DNA from: a virus
Direction: 5' to 3' (one strand)
Length of the DNA: 32,448 nucleotides
IMG/VR virus record: IMGVR_UViG_3300031463_000021
Span: 1-32,448 of that record
The position numbers and the translations under genes were made by a program. This document shows positions 1-32,448 of the stretch, in pieces. Below the pieces are notes generated by a model. The model made no database searches, had not been told where the DNA came from, and worked only from the letters and a program-made list of their open reading frames with translations. Positions within the stretch are counted from its first letter, which is position 1; each line of letters begins with the position of its first letter.

Positions 1-37
1 AAAATAGCCGGGGTAGCCTAGCCTGGCCAGGGCGCCA

Positions 38-55
38 GACTCATAATCTGGAGAG
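38..55. other. attL core
   Basis: GACTCATAATCTGGAGAG is identical to 32331-32348. It spans the anticodon loop, the 3' anticodon strand and the start of the variable region. Flanking bases differ on both sides (37 against 32330, 56 against 32349), which sets the outer limits of the crossover. Archaeal integrases commonly recombine within tRNA anticodon loops. Confidence 0.88.
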
Positions 56-412
56 AACAAGGGGCATGCGCCCTATCCCAGAGGTCGCGGGCTCGAATCC
101 CGCCCCCGGCACCAAGCGAAAACCTACGGTTTCCGCGCTTCCCTTGTTGAACGGAGCTTGTTTTGGGTTGTTTTGGTTTAGGGTTTGGAGTAGGGTGAGG
201 AGGGTTTGTAGGTTGTCTATTAGCGTGTGGTCTCCAGATTTGGGACGGTCCCAGGACGGTCCTGTGTATGGTTGTTCTCCAGACTGGGACGGTCCTAATA
301 GAAGAGTTGTTAGGTAGTCGTTTAAGCCCATGTTGGCGTTTTCTGCTTTGTTTCGGAGTAGGTCGGCGACTTCGGTTTTTAGGCATAAGCCTGTCATTCC
401 TTGTTTGGGCAA
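41..412 (-). CDS. Small RHH regulator ending inside the tRNA
   Basis: A 123-residue protein. Residues about 6-40 ([14 protein letters not shown] then an [17 protein letters not shown] helix) fit a ribbon-helix-helix DNA-binding fold. The middle is a linker with two similar GPS...SG(E/D) segments encoded by imperfect direct repeats, followed by a Leu/Asn-rich helix. The last 25 or so codons are antisense to the tRNA gene and the stop lies in the anticodon loop at 41-43, inside the att core. Because the core is shared, the same stop would be kept in the excised circle. It overlaps the upstream gene by 19 nt, so the two are probably co-transcribed. The C-terminal part may not be functional. A role in controlling integrase or lysogeny is inference. 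Confidence 0.6.
54..83 (+). other. tRNA intron at position 45/46
   Basis: CTGG (48-51) can pair with CCAG (78-81) to make the 4-bp central helix of a bulge-helix-bulge element, flanked by the 3-nt bulges AGA (52-54) and AGG (82-84). Cutting after the second base of each bulge removes 30 nt and leaves the standard 5-nt variable loop AGGTC. The outer helices are weak, so this is a relaxed form of the motif. The boundaries are inferred from structure. Confidence 0.8.
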
Positions 413-3198: not shown

Positions 3199-4407
3199 CT
3201 ATTTTTCGTTATTCAGGAGAATTATGTGTTCTTCCTTTGTCTTGTTTCTAAAGGCTGGATTAAAGGATTTACTTGCATAATTCAGGCTGTAGTTGACCTT
3301 ATCCAACAGTTTGAAACCTGTCTTTTCGGCAATTTCGTTGACTACCGCATCTCCTCTAAATAGCTCCTTTCTTATAATGGAATCTCCAACGACTATCACA
3401 AACGGTTTATTAGGTTTCAAGACATGCCTAAACTGTTCGAAACATCTTGTCATGTCCCTTATGTAAGTGTCGATGTTTTCCCTCTGACTTGAGTGCCTGA
3501 GTCTTGAGCCTATTTCATTGAACTTGGCGCGTTCCCAATCTAATTTCAACCAAAACATTCGCAATTTGTGGTAGAGGTAGTAGTCATATGTATTAGGATA
3601 TGGTGGTGATGTGACAATCAAGTCGGCACTATTTTCCTCCAAAAAATCTGCTTCTCTGCAGTCGGCATGATGAGCGACCGCTTGACAGTCGGAGGCTCTC
3701 TTGTTGAATTCTTTCATTCTTTTGCTCATATCTAAGAGCTTGTTTTTGAAAAGGGAAAAAGCGTGTTTTGGTAAGACTTCTTTTTTGACAGCAGCATATC
3801 GTGTTTCGCTTTCTTGATTGGAGACTGAGACTATTATAGAGGAAAATGCCAAAAGAACGAAATTCTTGAACTCTTCTCTAACGCATTCTTGAATGATGGA
3901 TGTTTTAATTATTGCTAACTCCTGCAAGACAGGCTCTTCAAACCAATGGTCTCTGTTGGGAAAATCGGGTATGTCAAAAGAATAGATGCTATTTTCAAAA
4001 GAGCTATCCATGAAGGCTATGAGATTTTGATTCTTATAACGGCTTGCCCAAAAATTATCAAGTCTCTTTTCAATTTTTGCTAATAAAGTAGGAATTGTAT
4101 CCAACTCTTGATCTGTGATTTTTGTGGTCTTAACATTTGCCATGAAAACGCCAAGAGGGTGAATATCAATGCCAAGAGATCGTCGTCCGAGGAGCTTTGC
4201 CTCTACAAGCGTTGTTCCGCTCCCACAATACGGGTCAAGAATAAGGTCGTTCTCGTTGCTCATGTGTTTGATGAAGAAGTTTGGTATTTGGGGTATAAAC
4301 TTTCCCGGAAAAGGGTGAAAATTATGAGTGAGATATGTGGTGTCTTGTGCATGGAGTATAACGTTAAGAATTTCTTCTTTAGGCAACGACATTATGAAAT
4401 CGCCCAT
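3199..4407 (-). CDS. DNA methyltransferase 1 (TSPPY type)
   Basis: A 402-residue SAM-dependent DNA methyltransferase. A THNFHPFPGKFIPQIPNFF segment near residue 30 is typical of these enzymes, followed by the SAM-binding motif DPYCGSGTT (about 58-66) with LGRRSLGIDI after it. The catalytic motif TSPPYPNTYDYYLYHKL lies near residue 265. Ser-Pro-Pro-Tyr is usual for N4-cytosine enzymes, so m4C is the likely product. About 200 residues between the motifs probably form the target-recognition domain. An in-frame ATG at 4392 is an alternative start. It overlaps the upstream methyltransferase by 29 nt (14 nt with the later start). Together the two would protect both strands of an asymmetric site. 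Confidence 0.87.
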   Translation of the reverse strand: MGDFIMSLPKEEILNVILHAQDTTYLTHNFHPFPGKFIPQIPNFFIKHMSNENDLILDPYCGSGTTLVEAKLLGRRSLGIDIHPLGVFMANVKTTKITDQELDTIPTLLAKIEKRLDNFWASRYKNQNLIAFMDSSFENSIYSFDIPDFPNRDHWFEEPVLQELAIIKTSIIQECVREEFKNFVLLAFSSIIVSVSNQESETRYAAVKKEVLPKHAFSLFKNKLLDMSKRMKEFNKRASDCQAVAHHADCREADFLEENSADLIVTSPPYPNTYDYYLYHKLRMFWLKLDWERAKFNEIGSRLRHSSQRENIDTYIRDMTRCFEQFRHVLKPNKPFVIVVGDSIIRKELFRGDAVVNEIAEKTGFKLLDKVNYSLNYASKSFNPAFRNKTKEEHIILLNNEK

Positions 4408-5248
4408 TCTCTGGTGGTTTTCTCAACACGACAAGAAAAGTGTGATTGATATTCACGTAGAAAACAGAAGGATATCCTAATAGTACGAGGCTTCGCTGTT
4501 CATTTTGGTCCCAGATAATCAAGTCGTGATAAAGGAACCCTGCATCTTTTCCGAGATGAGCAATATCAGAATGGAAGTCGATGAAGGGCTTTCCGTTTTG
4601 TGGATCCCTACAATCTTTTACAACCCAGATGTTGTATCCTCCAGGTTTCGTGACTATCATTAATTTTGTCATAACATCTTTTACGGCTTGAAGAAACTCT
4701 TCATAACCAAGATTGCCAAAGTCTCGTGGATCTTCTCCATACTGCTTGACTACCGATTTGTTCAAAGACGCTATCCACGAAGTCTTGTGGGTTTTCTTTC
4801 TGTCGTTTAAAGAACGCAAAATAAAGTTTGCATAAGGTGGAGAGGTGAACATAAGCTGAACACTATTTGGCTCCACCCATCGTAGCATTTCTCTACAGTC
4901 GCCAAGAATCACTTTTTGCTCGGGGCCTTCAATTAACTTTTGTTGACTGAGAATTTCTTTTGCCAATTTTACGAACGTTTCGTATAGCTCTATGCCTATT
5001 CCTCTTCTGCCAAGATTTCTTGCAGCGATAAGAGTGGTACCTACGCCAAGAAATGGGTCCAGAACCAAGTCATTCTTTTTTGTGTACATTTTTATTGCTC
5101 TCTCCGCTAAGGCCACCGAAAACGTGGCTCCATGCTTAAGGTGATACCATTCTCGAGCAGAACTAACTTCACGCGCTGTCCAAACGCTTTTGCTTAGGCG
5201 TGTCCACTCCTTCGGTGTGAGTCCATTAAACCCTACTTTTTCACTCAT
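4379..5248 (-). CDS. DNA methyltransferase 2 (TSPPY type)
   Basis: A 289-residue methyltransferase starting MSEKVGFNGL. Its ATG overlaps the TGA of the upstream regulator (ATGA), which fixes the start better than the longer open frame to 5305. The SAM-binding motif DPFLGVGTT with LGRRGIGIEL lies near residues 63-90 and the catalytic motif LMFTSPPYANF near 132-142. Motif spacing is shorter than in the neighbouring methyltransferase, so recognition probably lies after the catalytic motif. Ser-Pro-Pro-Tyr favours N4-cytosine methylation. Two unlike methyltransferases beside one nuclease is the usual plan for systems with non-palindromic targets. Translation is coupled to the regulator upstream. 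Confidence 0.87.
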   Translation of the reverse strand: MSEKVGFNGLTPKEWTRLSKSVWTAREVSSAREWYHLKHGATFSVALAERAIKMYTKKNDLVLDPFLGVGTTLIAARNLGRRGIGIELYETFVKLAKEILSQQKLIEGPEQKVILGDCREMLRWVEPNSVQLMFTSPPYANFILRSLNDRKKTHKTSWIASLNKSVVKQYGEDPRDFGNLGYEEFLQAVKDVMTKLMIVTKPGGYNIWVVKDCRDPQNGKPFIDFHSDIAHLGKDAGFLYHDLIIWDQNEQRSLVLLGYPSVFYVNINHTFLVVLRKPPENGRFHNVVA

Positions 5249-5469
5249 TTGTTTTTCACCCTGTTGTTGAAGTATATTCGGGCGGGTCCAACTTTCCTTG
5301 AGCATACCTCGCCTTTTTGTTCCATGGCTGTCAGAAAGCCTGCCATAAACTGGCGATTAATGTCTACTGCTTTCGCAATCTCCTTGATGCTGAGCCCAGG
5401 CGTCTTTGCTAATATCCTCTTGATTTTTTCGGATAAATCGATGCTAAGAGAAGGACGATCTGCGCTCAT
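5245..5469 (-). CDS. Winged-helix regulator of the R-M operon
   Basis: A 74-residue protein with a helix-turn-helix in residues about 15-50 (IKRILAKTPGLSIKEIAKAV then INRQFMAGFLTAMEQKGEV) and a short wing (KVGPARIYFNN). The ATG at 5467-5469 is preferred over a GTG at 5493 because it follows AGGGAT and fits the TATA box at 5511-5520. It is the first gene of the restriction-modification operon and overlaps the next gene by 4 nt. By position it may act like a controller protein that times nuclease expression; that is inference. Confidence 0.75.
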   Translation of the reverse strand: MSADRPSLSIDLSEKIKRILAKTPGLSIKEIAKAVDINRQFMAGFLTAMEQKGEVCSRKVGPARIYFNNRVKNK

Positions 5470-8884: not shown

Positions 8885-9850
8885 ATGAGTGAACGTCTGC
8901 CAGAAGTCAAGTTTCACAGCTATACTCTCCTCGATGGATCAGAACAAGTACTGGTCCAGAAAGTAGGAGACGGATCGATAATAAAGAGATTTGACAAGAC
9001 GCCGATTCCCCAGAAACTGACAGACGTTGTATGTCCACATTTTCTGGAACTGAAATGGGCTTACGGTTGTCCTTATGATTGTGCATGGTGCTTTCTCAAG
9101 GGAACACTACGGCTTCTCAGTACAAGGACAAAGCCTATCGTCAAAGACTACTGTAAAATCCAGAAGCATTTGGAAAGCTTCTTTGAGAACGACGGACACT
9201 CAAGGGAGCTACTAAACACTGGAGAGCTGGCTGATTCTCTAATGACTGAAAGCACCAATAAACCATTTTCAAGATTCGTCATACCACTTTTTGAAGAACA
9301 AGAGCAACACAAAGTCCTGTTCTTGACTAAATCCACCATCATAAAAAATCTTCTCAAAATGAAAAACCACAGTCAAGTTATAGTTAGTTTTAGCCTAAAC
9401 GCACCATCAGTCGCAAGAAAATGGGAGAGAGCACCTTCTGTCGAAAAAAGACTGAAAGCTGCAAAACTCTTGAGCGAAGCAGGCTACGAGACACGCATCC
9501 GTATTGATCCAATAGTTCCCGTTGAAAATTGGCAAAAACAATATCTAAGTATCATAGACTCAATATTCAGCAAGTTTGTTCCGGAAAGAATCACTCTGGG
9601 CTCTTTAAGAGGTCTTCAAAGCACCATCAATAATGCAAGAGACAAATCATGGACAATTTTTATGACAGAAACTTCCAACTGGGGAAAGAAAATTGCTTTC
9701 AACACTCGATTCTTGATCTATAAAACCGTATTGGAATATCTGAGATCTAAGTACAATTACTCGAAGGTTGCTCTTTGCAAAGAAACTATTGAAATGTGGA
9801 CCAAACTTGGCATGGACTACAAGAGTATTCAGTGTAATTGTTTACCTTAG
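8885..9850 (+). CDS. Radical SAM protein 1 (SPL-like)
   Basis: A 321-residue radical-SAM enzyme. Cys62, Cys66 and Cys69 (GCPYDCAWC) form the CxxxCxxC motif that binds the 4Fe-4S cluster. The layout (WAYGCPYDC, then NTGELADSLM, FLTKSTI, RIRIDPIVPVENW, and LCKETIEMW) resembles the spore-photoproduct-lyase-like group (COG1533). The C-terminus ends CNC, two extra cysteines also present in its neighbour. GGTGAAGGAG precedes the ATG. It is followed by a paralogue at 9942, and both converge on a TcmP-like gene. The substrate is unknown; modification or repair of nucleic acid is inferred from the family and the context. All motifs are intact. Confidence 0.82.
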   Translation: MSERLPEVKFHSYTLLDGSEQVLVQKVGDGSIIKRFDKTPIPQKLTDVVCPHFLELKWAYGCPYDCAWCFLKGTLRLLSTRTKPIVKDYCKIQKHLESFFENDGHSRELLNTGELADSLMTESTNKPFSRFVIPLFEEQEQHKVLFLTKSTIIKNLLKMKNHSQVIVSFSLNAPSVARKWERAPSVEKRLKAAKLLSEAGYETRIRIDPIVPVENWQKQYLSIIDSIFSKFVPERITLGSLRGLQSTINNARDKSWTIFMTETSNWGKKIAFNTRFLIYKTVLEYLRSKYNYSKVALCKETIEMWTKLGMDYKSIQCNCLP

Positions 9851-9907
9851 CTTTGCCTAATGAAAATCTCGAAACCGAGTATCCAATTAGTAAAATGTTA
9901 ATTTGTG

Positions 9908-9917
9908 TTATATAATA
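9908..9917 (+). promoter_or_regulatory. TATA box before radical SAM gene 2
   Basis: TTATATAATA lies about 25-30 nt before the ATG at 9942, so the transcript would be leaderless or nearly so. It also lies inside the open frame that extends to 9903, which argues against that longer start. Confidence 0.6.
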
Positions 9918-9941
9918 CTCTGGGTAGGAAACGGATGCAGT

Positions 9942-11015
9942 ATGACTGCCAAAGACAAGAAAAAGCATAGGGAAGCAGCATTAAAGGCTTGGCGAACAAT
10001 AAAACGCCAGAAGAGAGAGAAAGCTACAAAAGACATGCAGAAGTTAACCGAGTTCATAAAGCCAGAAGCCATGCAAAAAATAAAACACCCAGAGATAAGC
10101 GAGTCTTATGAACTGATAGAGCCTGCTTGGAATGGAAACCGCATTGTTGTGCCTTTTCACAAAACCCCTGAAAGCATAGCATGCGGAATGTTCTGGGAAT
10201 TAAGATGGGCGTATGGTTGCCCACTGGACTGCAGCTATTGCTACTTACGAGGAACAACTCGCGGCAAAATGCGCCCTCAATATGTGAGGATTGACCATAT
10301 CCTGGAAGCCTTGGATGAAGCCTTCACTAAAATCCGTTCACCATCAATTTTCAACGCAGGTGAGTTGTCGGATGCTCTTATGAATCCCCAGATAATGGCT
10401 CAAATAGTTGAAAGATTTGAGCAACAGAGTAAGCACAAGATATACCTCCTCACGAAATTTGGAGCGAGAAACATAGAGTTTCTGTTAGACCACCCGAGAA
10501 AACAGGTGATATGCGGTTGGAGCATTAACGCTCCTGCAGTCGCCAAGCTTTGGGAGAAAGCTGCTCCTCCTCCAGAGAAAAGAATTGAAGCTGCCAAACA
10601 GGTTAGCATTGCTGGGTATGACACGAGGATACGCATAGATCCTATTTTTCCGGTCCCTGATTGGCAGTTGCATTATGGTGAATTGGTTGACCAAATACTG
10701 GTCAACCTGAATCCTAACAGAATTATTCTTGGCACGCCAAGAGGGCTCTGGAAAACAATAAAGTATGCTAAAGAAGCATGCGCAGATATGTCTTGGACAC
10801 GTTTCTTCAAAGAGGACACTGGTTGGGGCAAAAAGTTATCTTTTGAGCAGAGGAAGGAAATATACGAGTTTTTCTACAAGAAACTCGATTCAGCAAACTT
10901 TCCTCTGTCCCGAGTATCTATATGCAAAGAAACAGTGGAAATGTGGGATGCTTTAAAATTGCGTTACACGCCTCGAGTCTGTAGCTGTTATGGTAAGACT
11001 GCCTTGCAGACTTAA
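9942..11015 (+). CDS. Radical SAM protein 2 (SPL-like)
   Basis: A 357-residue paralogue of the gene before it. Cys93, Cys97 and Cys100 (GCPLDCSYC) form the CxxxCxxC site. Shared blocks follow in the same order: FNAGELSDALM, LLTKFGARN, SINAPAVAKLWEKA, RIRIDPIFPVPDW, ICKETVEMW and a terminal CSC. It differs by an extra basic N-terminal helix (residues about 1-35, KKKHREAALKAW then KRQKREKATK), which may bind nucleic acid. It has its own TATA box and ends 20 nt from the stop of the convergent TcmP-like gene. Two related copies suggest a heterodimer or successive steps. The substrate is unknown. Confidence 0.82.
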   Translation: MTAKDKKKHREAALKAWRTIKRQKREKATKDMQKLTEFIKPEAMQKIKHPEISESYELIEPAWNGNRIVVPFHKTPESIACGMFWELRWAYGCPLDCSYCYLRGTTRGKMRPQYVRIDHILEALDEAFTKIRSPSIFNAGELSDALMNPQIMAQIVERFEQQSKHKIYLLTKFGARNIEFLLDHPRKQVICGWSINAPAVAKLWEKAAPPPEKRIEAAKQVSIAGYDTRIRIDPIFPVPDWQLHYGELVDQILVNLNPNRIILGTPRGLWKTIKYAKEACADMSWTRFFKEDTGWGKKLSFEQRKEIYEFFYKKLDSANFPLSRVSICKETVEMWDALKLRYTPRVCSCYGKTALQT

Positions 11016-14342: not shown

Positions 14343-15296
14343 ATGAAACCCAAACTTTTTGAAAGCCTGATGCAAAAGGACAACGAGTTCAAACTGCTCG
14401 TTGAAAAAGTCAAAGAACGAGCGGTTACGCATCCGTTTCTGAAGCGGTACATGGAAGTCGGAATCAAAGAAGGCTTGTTCAGCGACATGGCAGGCGCCTT
14501 AGGACGCATGCACGACACACTCGTAGAAGCAGCCTACCCAGAACTAATCGGCAGAAACATCATAAACGTAAAGTCGACAACCGAACCGTTAGAACGCTTC
14601 CCACTCGACGAAAAGGCAGTGGCTTACAACTATGCTGAAGGCGCAATCGCAAGGCTCAGCGGCAAAAAAACCAGCACCGTTGACATCCAAACAAACACGC
14701 TTGCAGAAGCCTCCGAAGAATGGACCAGAGAATTCGCAGAAGACGCTACATGGAACGTCATGGACAACATGATCGAAAAAGTAGGCAGAGCCTTGGGCGA
14801 AAACGAAACAACAAAAATCCTCTCGCTGTACGGAGCCATAGCTGATGCGGACTTGGCAGGAGGCGCCCCAATCGCTGGAGGCGGCGCAGCCCTAAGCTGG
14901 AATGGCTTGCTAAAACTTCACAACGCAGTTAGAGGCGAAAACTGGAGACCAACAGTCCTCGCAGTGCACGAAACACAACTACATCAACTACTAAACGATG
15001 ACAAATTCATTCACGCTCAATACTTGCCTTCAGGACAGACAGACTTGGAGCAAGGCATAGTTACAAGTGTCTTAGGTATGCGAGTCCAAGCAAGCACGCT
15101 TGTGCCTAACGGAACCGCTTATGCCATTGACACTCGTGTAGCTGCAGTCATGCTCTTGCGAAGAGACGTAACCGTTGAAGACTGGCAAGACCCAAAAACA
15201 GGCGAATACGGCGTCAGAGCCACAACACGCTTCGGCTTAGGCGTCCTGCGAAGCAAGGGTGTTGCGAAGATGACCAACATAAGCACCTCACTGTAG
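14343..15296 (+). CDS. Major capsid protein, HK97 fold
   Basis: A 317-residue protein. An N-terminal charged helical segment (residues about 1-60) is followed by LIGRNIINVKSTTEPLERFP and KKTSTVDIQTNTLAEASEEWTREF, a spine-helix and beta pattern usual for HK97-type capsid proteins, and by a C-terminal half with LSWNGLLKLHNAV, TVLAVHETQLHQLLND and GTAYAIDTRVAAVMLLRRDV (P- and A-domain like). Size, position after the decoration gene, and the upstream protease support the call. It has no long scaffold region, so the delta function may lie in its first 60 residues or in the 51-residue helper. Confidence 0.88.
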   Translation: MKPKLFESLMQKDNEFKLLVEKVKERAVTHPFLKRYMEVGIKEGLFSDMAGALGRMHDTLVEAAYPELIGRNIINVKSTTEPLERFPLDEKAVAYNYAEGAIARLSGKKTSTVDIQTNTLAEASEEWTREFAEDATWNVMDNMIEKVGRALGENETTKILSLYGAIADADLAGGAPIAGGGAALSWNGLLKLHNAVRGENWRPTVLAVHETQLHQLLNDDKFIHAQYLPSGQTDLEQGIVTSVLGMRVQASTLVPNGTAYAIDTRVAAVMLLRRDVTVEDWQDPKTGEYGVRATTRFGLGVLRSKGVAKMTNISTSL

Positions 15297-26591: not shown

Positions 26592-26855
26592 GTGAAGAAA
26601 GACACTCAAGAGCTTAGACAAAAGCTACTGACTGAACTGGAAGCCATGTTTGACATTGCCAAGAAAGCTGCATCCGACCCACAGACAAAGCCTAAGCAGG
26701 CTCAGATTTGGGTTCGCATCATGGGCTACCTCGGGCAAGTTATGAACAGCATTTCTGAAAGCTTCGACGAGGCCAAGGCTTTAGAGTATTTTGAAAATTT
26801 GGAGCGCATGATCCGTGAAGCTAAAGGGGATTCTGACCAAAGCCAAACAGCTTGA
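26592..26855 (+). CDS. Small helical protein before terminase
   Basis: An 87-residue, all-helical acidic protein starting at GTG 26592 (KKDTQELRQKLLTELEAMFD, AQIWVRIMGYLGQVMNSISE, LEYFENLERMIREAK). It overlaps the large terminase by 41 nt. Position and helix content suit a small terminase-like or packaging accessory protein, but no helix-turn-helix is clear. The frame is open further upstream without a common start; an ATA at 26535 behind GGGGGT is a possible but unusual alternative. Confidence 0.6.
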   Translation: MKKDTQELRQKLLTELEAMFDIAKKAASDPQTKPKQAQIWVRIMGYLGQVMNSISESFDEAKALEYFENLERMIREAKGDSDQSQTA

Positions 26856-28260
26856 AAACGAATGGCTTGAACAACAGAAAGCCAAACAAACAGAGATCCC
26901 AGAAGACTTCATTCAATTCTGCCAAAGAATGCTTGGCTTGAATCTAACAAAATATCAGATGGAGGCAGCTCGGCTCTTAGAAAAACAGAACGATGTCGCT
27001 TTAAGATGGTGCAGACAAAGTGGCAAAACCCACCTGATTGCTGCTTGGCTCCTACACTATGCCCTACTACATTCTGGTTCGCACATTGCGGTCGTTGGTC
27101 CAAGCTGGCGACAAACAATGATACCCATAACAAAAATCAACTACTTCAGAACAAAACTCCCAGCAGGACTATTCTACAAACCACAAAGAACCATCGTGAG
27201 GCTTAAGAACGGAAGCACAATCCAAGCGTTTCCAAACAATCCCAACAACTTGCGAGGCTTCACACTCCAAATCGTGTACTGTGATGAAATGAATTTCATT
27301 CCAAACGACGAAGAAATGTTTGACGCCATAAGCTTCACATTGGCAACTACAAACGGCAAATTCATCGCAAGCAGCACACCTTGGACAACCGACAGCACCT
27401 TCTGGAAGCTATTCCACGACAACGCCTTCCAACATTTCGCAAAAAGCCACGTAACCTACCAGCAAGCTCTCGAACCGAACGGACCTATAACCGAGAAATG
27501 GCTGGAAAAGAAGAGACACGAGTATGAAGGCGACCCGTGGCGTTGGCGCAGAGAGATGGAAGCGGAATGGGCTGAAGACGAAAACGTCTGGCTCAACCAA
27601 GCCCTCATCACAAGCTGCATAGACAGCAGTTTAGAATACTGCGACTTTGAACAGGCAGTATCAGGCGAGTATTATGAAGGCTTAGACCTTGGCAAATACC
27701 AAGACTACAGCGTCCTCTCAGTTGTCGAAGTAGAAGATACTTCTATAAGACTAATTCACATGCACCGCTTTCCGTTGCGAACACCATACGCAAGCGTGAT
27801 AGGCTACGTTAAGACGCTCTGCGACAGATGGCAAACAATAAACAAAGTCTTAGTCGACATGACAGGCGTAGGAGACTACATAGTCGAAGACATGATAAAT
27901 GCTGGAATAACGGAAACTGAAGGCGTCAAATTCACCCAAGAAACAAAAGAGAAAATGGCACAATGGCTCAAGCAATGCATGGTTGAAAAGAAGCTCCAAA
28001 TTCCTTATGACAGCGACTTGATTGCGGAGTTAAACATTGAACGGTTTGAATTGACAAAAGACGGTAAAATCAAGTTCTCGCACCCAGAAGGCACTAATGA
28101 TGATCGCTTCTGGAGTTTAGCCTTAGCCTGTTACGCATCCAGAACAGAGCCTCCGCCTAAACTTTGGGTTGTGCCACGCACCGCTTCTGCTGGAAAGGTG
28201 AAACTTCAACGGCTACGAAAGAAACTGCAAAAACACCAAGTCACAGGAACAACAAGATGA
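26815..28260 (+). CDS. terL: Large terminase
   Basis: A 481-residue packaging motor. The adenine-binding segment LTKYQMEAARLLEKQND is followed by the Walker A variant WCRQSGKTHLIA (residues about 65-75), and the Walker B LQIVYCDEMNF (151-161) with the catalytic Glu158. The coupling motif SSTPW lies near 186-190. The RNase-H-like nuclease has Asp in YEGLDLGKYQDYS (about 291), Asp in KVLVDMTGVGD (about 348) and NDDRFWSLALA near the end. All catalytic acids appear present. It starts at GTG and overlaps the upstream gene by 41 nt. It lies after the tail genes rather than before the portal, which is unusual. Confidence 0.93.
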   Translation: MKLKGILTKAKQLENEWLEQQKAKQTEIPEDFIQFCQRMLGLNLTKYQMEAARLLEKQNDVALRWCRQSGKTHLIAAWLLHYALLHSGSHIAVVGPSWRQTMIPITKINYFRTKLPAGLFYKPQRTIVRLKNGSTIQAFPNNPNNLRGFTLQIVYCDEMNFIPNDEEMFDAISFTLATTNGKFIASSTPWTTDSTFWKLFHDNAFQHFAKSHVTYQQALEPNGPITEKWLEKKRHEYEGDPWRWRREMEAEWAEDENVWLNQALITSCIDSSLEYCDFEQAVSGEYYEGLDLGKYQDYSVLSVVEVEDTSIRLIHMHRFPLRTPYASVIGYVKTLCDRWQTINKVLVDMTGVGDYIVEDMINAGITETEGVKFTQETKEKMAQWLKQCMVEKKLQIPYDSDLIAELNIERFELTKDGKIKFSHPEGTNDDRFWSLALACYASRTEPPPKLWVVPRTASAGKVKLQRLRKKLQKHQVTGTTR

Positions 28261-29708
28261 GAAGACACGAGTTTTTCCGCATCCGCCAATACAGGCGCAG
28301 ATACGACAAGCGAGAAGGCAAGTTCATAATCGACATAGCCTACGAAACAGCAGCTCCAGAACCAACAGAACGAGTTGTAAACGTGGCTGAAGCCTTCGGG
28401 CTTGGACTCGACCAATGGGAAAAATTCGTAGTCTACGACAATGTGGAGCTGAAAATAGGACCAAAGGACATTGTCTACATAACAGGCGATAGCGGCTCGG
28501 GAAAAAGCGTGCTATTAAAGGCTTTAGAAAAAGACATCAAACAAGACATGCAAGCCACATCAATCAACGTAAAAGACATAAAACCAGACCCCAACAAGCC
28601 ATTAATCGAAACAGTCGGCAAAACCACAGAAGAAGCCTTAGAGCTTCTAAGCAAAGTAGGCTTGAATGACGCTTTCCTCTTCCTAAGAAGCTATGACCAG
28701 CTGAGCGACGGACAAAAATACCGCTACAAGATAGCGAAAATGATTGAAAGCCAAGCCCAATTCTGGATAATGGACGAGTTTGCAGCAACACTCGACCGAG
28801 ACACAGCCAAAATCGTAGCCTACAACCTCCAGAAACACGCAAGACAACAAGGCAAGGCTGTTTTGGCGGCAACAACCCACACAGACTTACTTGAAGACCT
28901 AAACCCTTCAGTGCACATTCACAAACGATTCGGCAAAGAAATAACAGTAAGCTATTACCCAAACGAGCCAGCCAAGGAATGCAGCCTTACAAAGGAAATG
29001 CAGATCACAGAAGGCACGACAGAAGACTGGAGAAAACTTGCAGGCTTCCACTATCGCAGCCACAAGATAGCTGCACCTCGCAAAATCCTCTGCCTCAAAC
29101 GAGATGGCGAGTTATGTGGAGTAATAGTCTACAACTACCCACCACCCACTTGCTTCGGAAGAAGGCTTGTCTTACCTAAGATGTCAATGAAAGAGCTGAA
29201 CGAAAAACTGAGCATAATCACCCGAGTCGTCGTGCATCCGAAATATCGCACGATAGGCTTAGGCACAAAACTTGTCAAGGAAACATTACCGTTGGCTGGA
29301 ACCGAATACGTGGAAATGCCCGCAGTTATGGCGAAATACAATCCCTTCGCAGAAAAAGCAGGAATGCAGAAAATCGCCCAACAGCCACCGCCAAGAGAAG
29401 CTGTAAAAATCGCAGAAACTCTTCATCAACTCGGATTCAACACTCAGCTGCTTAGCAGTGAAGAATACGTATTGAGTAAGCTTCAAACTCTGAGCGACAA
29501 GGAAGTGGCGAAAATTAGAGAAACATTCGTAAGAAACAGTCATGCTCGATTCATGAAATACTTCTTTCCTCATCAGCTGTTTGGAAAAAGGGAAGCCTAC
29601 ACAAAAGAAATAAGAAAAACCAGCCTTGAAAGACTTGCACACTTAATCAAAGTCTGCGGATTCTTAATGCAGACGAAAGTCTACTTATTTTGGAAATCTT
29701 TCAATTAG
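28257..29708 (+). CDS. ABC-ATPase-GNAT fusion protein
   Basis: A 483-residue protein. The ATG overlaps the terminase stop (ATGA), so translation is coupled. ATPase domain: Walker A GDSGSGKSVLLKAL (77-90), signature YDQLSDGQKYRYKIA (146-160), Walker B FWIMDEFAATLD (169-180) and a switch His in AATTHTD (205-210). An acetyltransferase-like domain follows, with the acetyl-CoA loop VVVHPKYRTIGLGTKLVKE near 320-340. The pair matches COG2401, an ABC-type ATPase fused to a predicted acetyltransferase. There are no membrane segments, so it is not a transporter. Coupling to the terminase suggests a role in packaging or genome handling; the substrate is unknown. Confidence 0.85.
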   Translation: MRRHEFFRIRQYRRRYDKREGKFIIDIAYETAAPEPTERVVNVAEAFGLGLDQWEKFVVYDNVELKIGPKDIVYITGDSGSGKSVLLKALEKDIKQDMQATSINVKDIKPDPNKPLIETVGKTTEEALELLSKVGLNDAFLFLRSYDQLSDGQKYRYKIAKMIESQAQFWIMDEFAATLDRDTAKIVAYNLQKHARQQGKAVLAATTHTDLLEDLNPSVHIHKRFGKEITVSYYPNEPAKECSLTKEMQITEGTTEDWRKLAGFHYRSHKIAAPRKILCLKRDGELCGVIVYNYPPPTCFGRRLVLPKMSMKELNEKLSIITRVVVHPKYRTIGLGTKLVKETLPLAGTEYVEMPAVMAKYNPFAEKAGMQKIAQQPPPREAVKIAETLHQLGFNTQLLSSEEYVLSKLQTLSDKEVAKIRETFVRNSHARFMKYFFPHQLFGKREAYTKEIRKTSLERLAHLIKVCGFLMQTKVYLFWKSFN

Positions 29709-31447: not shown

Positions 31448-32269
31448 CTACGCGATGAGAAGCCCAGCCTTCAACCTAAGTCTCTTGACGTATTCTGCGT
31501 ATTTTGGATAGTATTGTTTGGCCTGCCTGAGCAATATCATATAGTGTTTGGCGCCTATCGTTTTGGGCGTCCGTCCCTCTATGAAGTCTGCTACGCTTTC
31601 TGGTACTCCAAGCTCTATCATCTTGTCAAACGCAAACTTGCGCAAGTATTTGCAGCGAACCACACCTGGAAGCTTTTGCACGTATTTCCCAGCATTCTTG
31701 TCTGTCAAACACTTTTTCTCTTCCTCAGAAAGCTGCTTAAGCAAACGCATCGTGTGCTCTGTTAAAAAGCCGTAGTAGGCTACTTTCGACTTTCTGAACA
31801 TCCCCGCGCAAGCAACGTAGAACCCCTCAGCCTTCTCCACCGCGTCAGCCTTGAAACCGTCAATCAACTTCACTGTCTCTGTCAACCGCAAGCCGCTGTC
31901 TAAAGCCAAGTTAAAAGCTACCCTATGCTTGAGCAAATCCACCTTTTCCACTATCCGCAAAGAACGCACAATCTCATCTTCGCTCGGAATCTTCAAGTCA
32001 ACGCCAATCTCCCGTTTCGGAATAGCTTCTTTCAACGCCTCAATCCACGTTCGCTCAGCGCCCTTAAGCCTTGCAAAGTTGAGCAACGCATGCAAAGCTG
32101 GAATTAACTCGTGCCGTCCGCCGCCAATATTGGCAAAGATGTTAACGATGTCCATAGCCTCTTTAATCCGCTTATCCTTGACGTGCCTATCCAAGCTGCT
32201 AACCAAGCCTTTCGCATAATACTTATTAAGCCCCTTACTCTGAAGCCAAGCAATGAACTCCTCACGCAA
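31448..32269 (-). CDS. int: Tyrosine integrase
   Basis: A 273-residue recombinase from TTG 32267-32269. Arg128 in DSGLRLTETVK, Lys162 region, the K-x-x-R pair K207/R210 in VRCKYLRKFAFDKM, Arg233 and the nucleophile Tyr243 in AKHYMILL are in the order of archaeal tyrosine integrases, where KxxR replaces HxxR. A four-helix core-binding domain takes residues about 1-80 (EEFIAWLQSKGLNKYYAKGL). The same frame is open further upstream into the tRNA fragment (SPDYESLSGHIGLDRNSQHQ then EIDYKG) until a TAG at 32366-32368, so the protein is probably longer in the excised circle. It catalyses integration and excision at the tRNA core. Confidence 0.86.
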   Translation of the reverse strand: MREEFIAWLQSKGLNKYYAKGLVSSLDRHVKDKRIKEAMDIVNIFANIGGGRHELIPALHALLNFARLKGAERTWIEALKEAIPKREIGVDLKIPSEDEIVRSLRIVEKVDLLKHRVAFNLALDSGLRLTETVKLIDGFKADAVEKAEGFYVACAGMFRKSKVAYYGFLTEHTMRLLKQLSEEEKKCLTDKNAGKYVQKLPGVVRCKYLRKFAFDKMIELGVPESVADFIEGRTPKTIGAKHYMILLRQAKQYYPKYAEYVKRLRLKAGLLIA

Positions 32270-32330
32270 GCCCTTGTAGTCAATCTCTTGGTGCTGGGAG
32301 TTTCGGTCAAGCCCAATATGTCCGCTAAGC

Positions 32331-32348
32331 GACTCATAATCTGGAGAG
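32331..32348. other. attR core
   Basis: Identical to 38-55. It lies 61 bp upstream of the integrase start and marks the right end of the element. Confidence 0.88.
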
Positions 32349-32376
32349 TCAAAGGGGCAAGCGCCCTAACCCAGAA
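32347..32376 (+). other. tRNA intron at 45/46 (host copy)
   Basis: CTGG (32341-32344) and CCAG (32371-32374) give the central helix, AGA and AAG the bulges. Removal leaves the same AGGTC variable loop as on the left. Length is 30 nt, as on the left, with several base differences. Confidence 0.75.
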
Positions 32377-32390
32377 GTCGCGGGCTCGAA

Positions 32391-32410
32391 ACACAAGAAC
32401 AAAGCGAGAA
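32391..32410 (+). other. tRNA intron at 59/60 (host copy only)
   Basis: The T stem GCGGG/CCCGC is the outer helix, CTCG (32385-32388) and CGAG (32405-32408) are the 4-bp central helix, and AAA and AAT the bulges. Cutting after the second base of each bulge gives the T loop CTCGAAT found in the left copy. The intron is 20 nt. The left copy has no such insertion. Confidence 0.82.
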
Positions 32411-32448
32411 TCCCGCCCCCGGCACCAAGTGAGAATTTAAAGGTTTAT

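Follow-up and report, generated by a model that had tools for sequence, protein, structure and literature searches.

The tRNA sequences described here are best explained by the replacement of the 3' half of a host tRNA-Met gene with the half that a virus carries in its own attachment site (attP), the loss of a T-loop intron being a by-product; we hold this explanation to be highly probable. The analysed stretch of DNA (the window, 32,448 bases) is one IMG/VR virus record and contains a 32-kb head-tailed provirus with tRNA-Met(CAT) sequence at both ends. The host is an uncultured archaeon of the class Bathyarchaeia. Between the two tRNA copies are the genes for capsid, portal-like and terminase proteins and for a PF16795 integrase, all recognised by phrog and Pfam profile matches. 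The features referred to below are as follows.

1..6, no strand: DNA upstream of the tRNA gene, 6 nt, taken as host (inferred from the attL geometry).
7..114, plus strand: complete tRNA-Met(CAT) gene with encoded CCA (attL), host 5' half and virus-borne 3' half (Rfam RF00005; ARAGORN on the spliced sequence).
38..55, plus strand: 18-nt stretch identical in attL and attR, GACTCATAATCTGGAGAG (alignment of the copies; anticodon loop CTCATAA at 40-46).
54..83, plus strand: 30-nt intron at 45/46 of the virus-borne half, AGAACAAGGGGCATGCGCCCTATCCCAGAG (CTGG/CCAG helix, 3-nt bulges; excision restores a 5-nt variable loop).
14343..15296, plus strand: HK97-type major capsid protein (phrog_267, E=6.5e-14; PF05065).
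26815..28260, plus strand: terminase large subunit (phrog_2, E=9.4e-38; PF03237).
31448..32269, minus strand: tyrosine recombinase (integrase), 273 aa (PF16795 Phage_integr_3, E=1.8e-25; phrog_5127 integrase, E=1.8e-41).
32331..32427, plus strand: displaced tRNA-Met 3' half with CCA (attR), from the anticodon loop on (90% and 93% repeats of the left copy).
32347..32376, plus strand: 30-nt intron at 45/46 of the displaced half (24/30 identical to the left-copy intron).
32391..32410, plus strand: 20-nt intron at 59/60 (T loop), displaced half only, ACACAAGAACAAAGCGAGAA (top match of a blind bulge-helix-bulge scan; the same in contig L008).
32428..32448, no strand: DNA after the displaced half, 21 nt, taken as host flank (AAGTGAGAATTTAAAGG; AAGTGAGAATTT); it is unlike the viral left arm, which contig L092 has exactly.

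Some other genes of the provirus can be mentioned here. The open reading frame at 28164-29708, adjoining the terminase, fuses an ABC-type ATPase domain with a GNAT acetyltransferase domain. Two adjacent related frames (8885-9850 and 9903-11015) are radical SAM-like, the first matching spore photoproduct lyase (PF20903), and two further adjacent frames (3199-4407 and 4379-5305) resemble DNA methyltransferases, the first by a match to N6_N4_Mtase (PF01555) and the second as judged by eye.

The left copy is bounded by GCCGGGG...CCCCGGC A CCA and is matched by Rfam as a tRNA at 7-111 (57.6 bits); its host 5' half has the sequence GGCGCCAGACTC... The two copies meet at the anticodon loop, and the identical 18-nt stretch there is, from the alignment, the probable crossover region. 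An earlier sequence-only reading stated that both halves carry a 30-nt intron at 45/46 and that the right half has an additional 20-nt T-loop intron (59/60) missing on the left. Both statements hold: the former introns occupy 54-83 and 32347-32376, though their sequences differ, and the latter lies at exactly 32391-32410. The intron analysis of both copies, which that reading had recommended, thus gives the 45/46 intron alone on the left and two introns on the right. After in silico splicing the two 3' halves are identical letter for letter, and with the 5' half they yield tRNA-Met(cat) by ARAGORN; within the tRNA, the copies differ solely in their introns. With default and long-intron settings ARAGORN called no tRNA in the unspliced window, since the introns sit outside the anticodon loop, and Rfam reported the left gene only.

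The insert at 59/60 is a predicted archaeal tRNA intron of the bulge-helix-bulge (BHB) type. The T stem (5 bp) adjoins a 4-bp helix, formed by CTCG of the T loop and CGAG at the 3' end of the insert, and there are two 3-nt bulges (AAA and AAT), with the cuts falling between bulge nucleotides 2 and 3. A blind BHB scan of the right copy returned as its best match exactly the 20-nt insert, and shuffled inserts satisfy the helix condition at this place in 0.56% of trials. The description of the motif as a “perfect bulge-helix-bulge” is right as to the geometry of the helix and the bulges but overstated in its adjective, because the inner helix is a single C-G pair; this is a relaxed BHB form and not the strict hBHBh' one. 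The insert is not an assembly slip, since the same intron is found in contig L008 (metagenome 3300042903), which is 99.95% identical to the window over 9.7 kb. Inserts of the same geometry occupy the same place in three Bathyarchaeia genomes (13 nt in G002, 15 nt in G129, 12 nt in G054). Three search patterns, applied to 257 Bathyarchaeia genomes, recovered a single intact gene with a T-loop intron (G002) and two relic halves (G129 and G054), the other matches being non-tRNA sequence. Exact searches of IMG/VR for the T-loop introns, and for the right flank with the consensus of the viral left arm, found nothing beyond L008.

The claim that the left 3' half was supplied by the virus and the right one displaced is supported by several observations. 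The integrase gene is 62 nt from the attR core. L007, L008 and L092 have the same viral right arm beside the integrase, and in each of them it meets a tRNA 3' half at the same position of the anticodon loop. The last of these contigs, which is ~90% identical to the window and belongs to the bin of Bathyarchaeota A05DMB-2, contains in contiguous order the viral right arm, a 3' half lacking the T-loop intron and the viral left arm, which is the arrangement of attP; its 3' half is followed by CCAAGCGAAAACCTACGG, exactly the left arm of the window. Therefore the virus carries its own 3' half, so that the left half of the window is viral and the right half displaced. One may suppose instead that a tRNA remnant of independent origin, or an artefact of assembly, accounts for the right fragment, and single relic tRNA-Met halves do exist (G054, for instance, has two of them upstream of its intact gene). 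We consider this extremely improbable: the junction recurs in three viruses, L008 was assembled independently, the fragment starts exactly at the anticodon loop, and the attP of L092 contradicts the idea.

The attP half of L092 and the chromosomal tRNA-Met of A05DMB-3 (L132) have the same 45/46 intron, with identity over 34 nt, while the downstream flanks differ. This sequence identity suggests that viruses and hosts have recently exchanged 3' halves.

A further observation concerns the integrase gene. From the listed TTG start, its frame stays open through the att core and reaches a stop within the 45/46 intron (window 32270-32376, minus strand), and it is open across the core in both the window and L092. 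An in-frame ATG occurs within the 45/46 intron of L092 (attP) and in neither attR form. A coding region between the integrase start and the att core is not supported, since substitutions are spread evenly across codon positions. The open frame may be due to chance or to a start codon switch driven by integration.

A more serious objection is that the right half and its flank could belong to a second, related provirus, being its attP half and left arm; the T-loop intron would then be virus-borne and would not stem from the original host gene. In an ungapped comparison, 15 of the 31 nt that follow the right CACC agree with the viral left arm (shuffle p ~0.001, a post hoc value), where the best of 47 ordinary host flanks reaches 14 matches, and the left arms beside the tRNA do vary among relatives (L006 and L120). 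Yet local alignment of the right flank with the left arm is not significant (p 0.07), and the left arm of L092 is exactly that of the window over the first 14 nt, where the right flank departs from it. The origin of the introns bears on the same question. When 84,980 species genomes were searched for tRNA-Met genes interrupted by an intron at 45/46, 51 stretches were found, and almost all are labelled Bathyarchaeota. The closest chromosomal intron to the displaced one, at a single edit, is that of Bathyarchaeota isolate Zod_Metabat.546 (L103), which also speaks against a second provirus; the nearest relative of the viral 45/46 intron is the displaced one, at six edits. We regard a second provirus as unlikely.

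For the preferred explanation, the replacement of the 3' half by attP, we propose the following course of events. The attP of the virus would be a complete tRNA-Met 3' half beginning at the anticodon loop, and the integrase would recombine it with the host tRNA-Met gene at this loop; this crossover point is deduced from IntSSV1, as integrases of this family exchange strands around the anticodon loop (PMC8371274). The host 5' half with its promoter would be retained and joined to the viral 3' half, and the host 3' half would be moved to the far end of the provirus. The 45/46 and 59/60 introns of the host would leave together with this half, because both are downstream of the crossover, and the viral set (45/46 only) would come in. 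Since the mature tRNA would stay the same, the swap is presumably neutral for translation. The intron would thus be lost through 3'-half replacement and not through splicing or reverse transcription. The T-loop intron is no obstacle to such integration, and its loss needs no special function, because the crossover is upstream of both introns. The statement that the viral half “removes” the intron is accordingly acceptable in the sense that the intron is absent after integration, but is best understood as a passive process, as the introns travel with the 3' half.

This course of events requires a look at the host gene before integration, and we infer that it originally had both introns. The replacement of a two-intron gene by a one-intron gene, as claimed from the window, is supported by the geometry, by an orthologue in G002 and by a relic in G129, but no contig with the exact empty site of this host was found. 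In G002 (Bathyarchaeota ILS 300; L094, G002:C46:16597-16746) an uninterrupted tRNA-Met directly follows rpiA and has three introns: one of 28 nt in the D loop, one at 45/46 and one at 59/60; the contig ends right after CCA. In G129 the intact tRNA-Met beside rpiA has the 45/46 intron only; ~0.85 kb downstream on the same strand, beyond an FMN-reductase gene, there is a decayed 3' half in which a 59/60 intron of 15 nt is still present. An empty site lacking the T-loop intron in a related strain had been named as possible counter-evidence, and in this respect the result is mixed: the tRNA-Met of L103, which among chromosomal genes is closest to the right half, lacks a T-loop intron; L103, however, is a different species and not the host strain. 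It follows from L103 that a gain or loss of the T-loop intron does not always require the whole 3' half to be exchanged.

The ends of the contigs provide an indirect indication of the gene before integration. Contigs stop k bases into sequence common to two paths, and the largest k in JGI metaSPAdes runs is 127 (PMC7171226). L008 and L007, from different metagenomes, each stop exactly 127 nt past the first base shared with a host 5' half; the same effect is seen in L139 and L113 (one bin), whose last 127 nt are shared exactly. The simplest reading of these ends is that the 3' half, with its flank, was also joined to a host 5' half in the same samples, which would amount to a whole two-intron gene. 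For the window itself the argument was dropped, as its two ends imply different k (118 nt at the right end).

The same data bear on the possibility that the T-loop intron was inserted into the displaced half after integration, when this half was already non-functional. The displaced half is free of selection, and T-loop introns of tRNA-Met are found mostly in displaced or relic halves (the window, G129 and G054), with one intact gene (G002). We nevertheless find a late insertion very unlikely: the BHB geometry is exact and the exons are untouched, the intact orthologue of G002 has the same kind of intron, and the contig-end arithmetic indicates a whole gene with the intron in one sample.

Apart from the window and the relic of G129, there is a case of the reverse direction. 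The genome G008 (L251, G008:C114:38800-52200) contains a 10.2-kb element with an integrase (a weak PF16795 match) and a HerA-like ATPase. Its functional tRNA-Met (~1447-1640 of L251) has three introns, at 37/38 (27 nt, with outer and inner helices of 5 bp), at 45/46 (33 nt) and in the acceptor stem (30 nt), and the displaced half (11702-11790 of L251) has one. The 37/38 intron starts with ATCTGG, a copy of the exon, and therefore leaves the attachment core unaltered. G008 is a case of intron gain driven by an element, in which a one-intron half was displaced and a three-intron gene left behind. It means that replacement alters the intron number in both directions; the functional gene and the displaced half differ in this number in the window (2 to 1), in G129 (as a relic) and in G008 (1 to 3). 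Candidate second copies in G071 and G217 are actually other tRNA genes. Simple 3'-half replacement does not account for G054 (L099 / G054:C23), whose intact gene has two decayed 3' halves of tRNA-Met upstream of it, one of them containing a 59/60 intron.

It is natural to ask whether the loss of the intron was selected, i.e., whether a viral half without the T-loop intron benefits the virus through re-excision, through tRNA maturation or by countering a protective intron. Archaeal tRNA introns have indeed been proposed to guard the genes that contain them against integrating elements (Randau and Soll, cited in PMC3218864; also PMC3293823), and the attachment halves of three related viruses (the window, L006 and L092) lack the T-loop intron. 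On the other hand, this intron is rare in tRNA-Met anyway (one intact gene in the 257 genomes), the element of G008 adds two introns, and integration upstream of the intron needs no removal. We believe a selected removal to be quite unlikely. The idea of protection is itself not supported for introns at 45/46 and 59/60, because the crossover is upstream of them, G008 adds introns, and integrations into intron-bearing tRNA genes do occur: 10 of the 39 tRNA integrations in Thaumarchaeota (PMC6563490). The window, the relic and the gain case together argue that an integrase of this kind is not hindered by introns that lie outside the anticodon loop.

If the replacement took place as proposed, integrating viruses can alter the intron content of an essential gene. 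The origin and loss of archaeal tRNA introns is an old open question, and here two introns would be swapped in one step with the tRNA unchanged. It is tempting to generalise that, in Bathyarchaeia, integrating viruses and plasmids are a main route of tRNA intron gain and loss, that attachment halves pass between viruses and hosts as exchangeable 3' cassettes which differ in their intron sets while specifying the same mature tRNA, and that intron patterns record past infections instead of slow gain and loss; we offer this as a tentative proposal and are more inclined to doubt it than to accept it. With the window, the relic and the gain case at hand, the role of mobile elements as intron carriers is testable by counting attL/attR pairs across genomes.

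The exchange of introns by elements is not a new idea as such. Sugahara et al. (2012) proposed intron gain through the integration of a pNOB8-like element (PMC3293823), and a 2021 review repeats the proposal (PMC8371274). We found no earlier report of intron loss by integration in the open-access literature; the present case is the loss direction, brought about by a virus. Their tRNA-Thr(GGU) of Caldiarchaeum (PMC3293823) is similar in that an element brings a part of the tRNA with another intron set, the displaced fragment is kept, and one-intron and two-intron genes differ by integration. There, however, the change was an intron gain with replacement of the 5' part, and the insert, of 1.9 kb, was interpreted as plasmid-derived, whereas here it was an intron loss with replacement of the 3' half, and the capsid and terminase genes mark the element as a tailed provirus; in addition, the relic and the reverse case come from the same archaeal class.

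The comparison with viruses that use an SSV1-type PF16795 integrase (PMC8371274) is closer in mechanism: the 3' part of a tRNA serves as the attachment site, the exchange takes place at or near the anticodon loop, and the tRNA is restored. In the well-studied cases of this type attP and attB are near-identical (PMC8371274), whereas of the two halves considered here one has an entire intron that the other lacks, and a second intron differs between them at 6 of its 30 bases. The attP of the SSV type splits the integrase gene, while here it lies at the edge of this gene and not clearly inside it. Thaumarchaeal elements likewise enter intron-containing tRNA genes, but the available part of the paper describing them (PMC6563490) reports no change in intron number, unlike what we observe between the two ends of this provirus.
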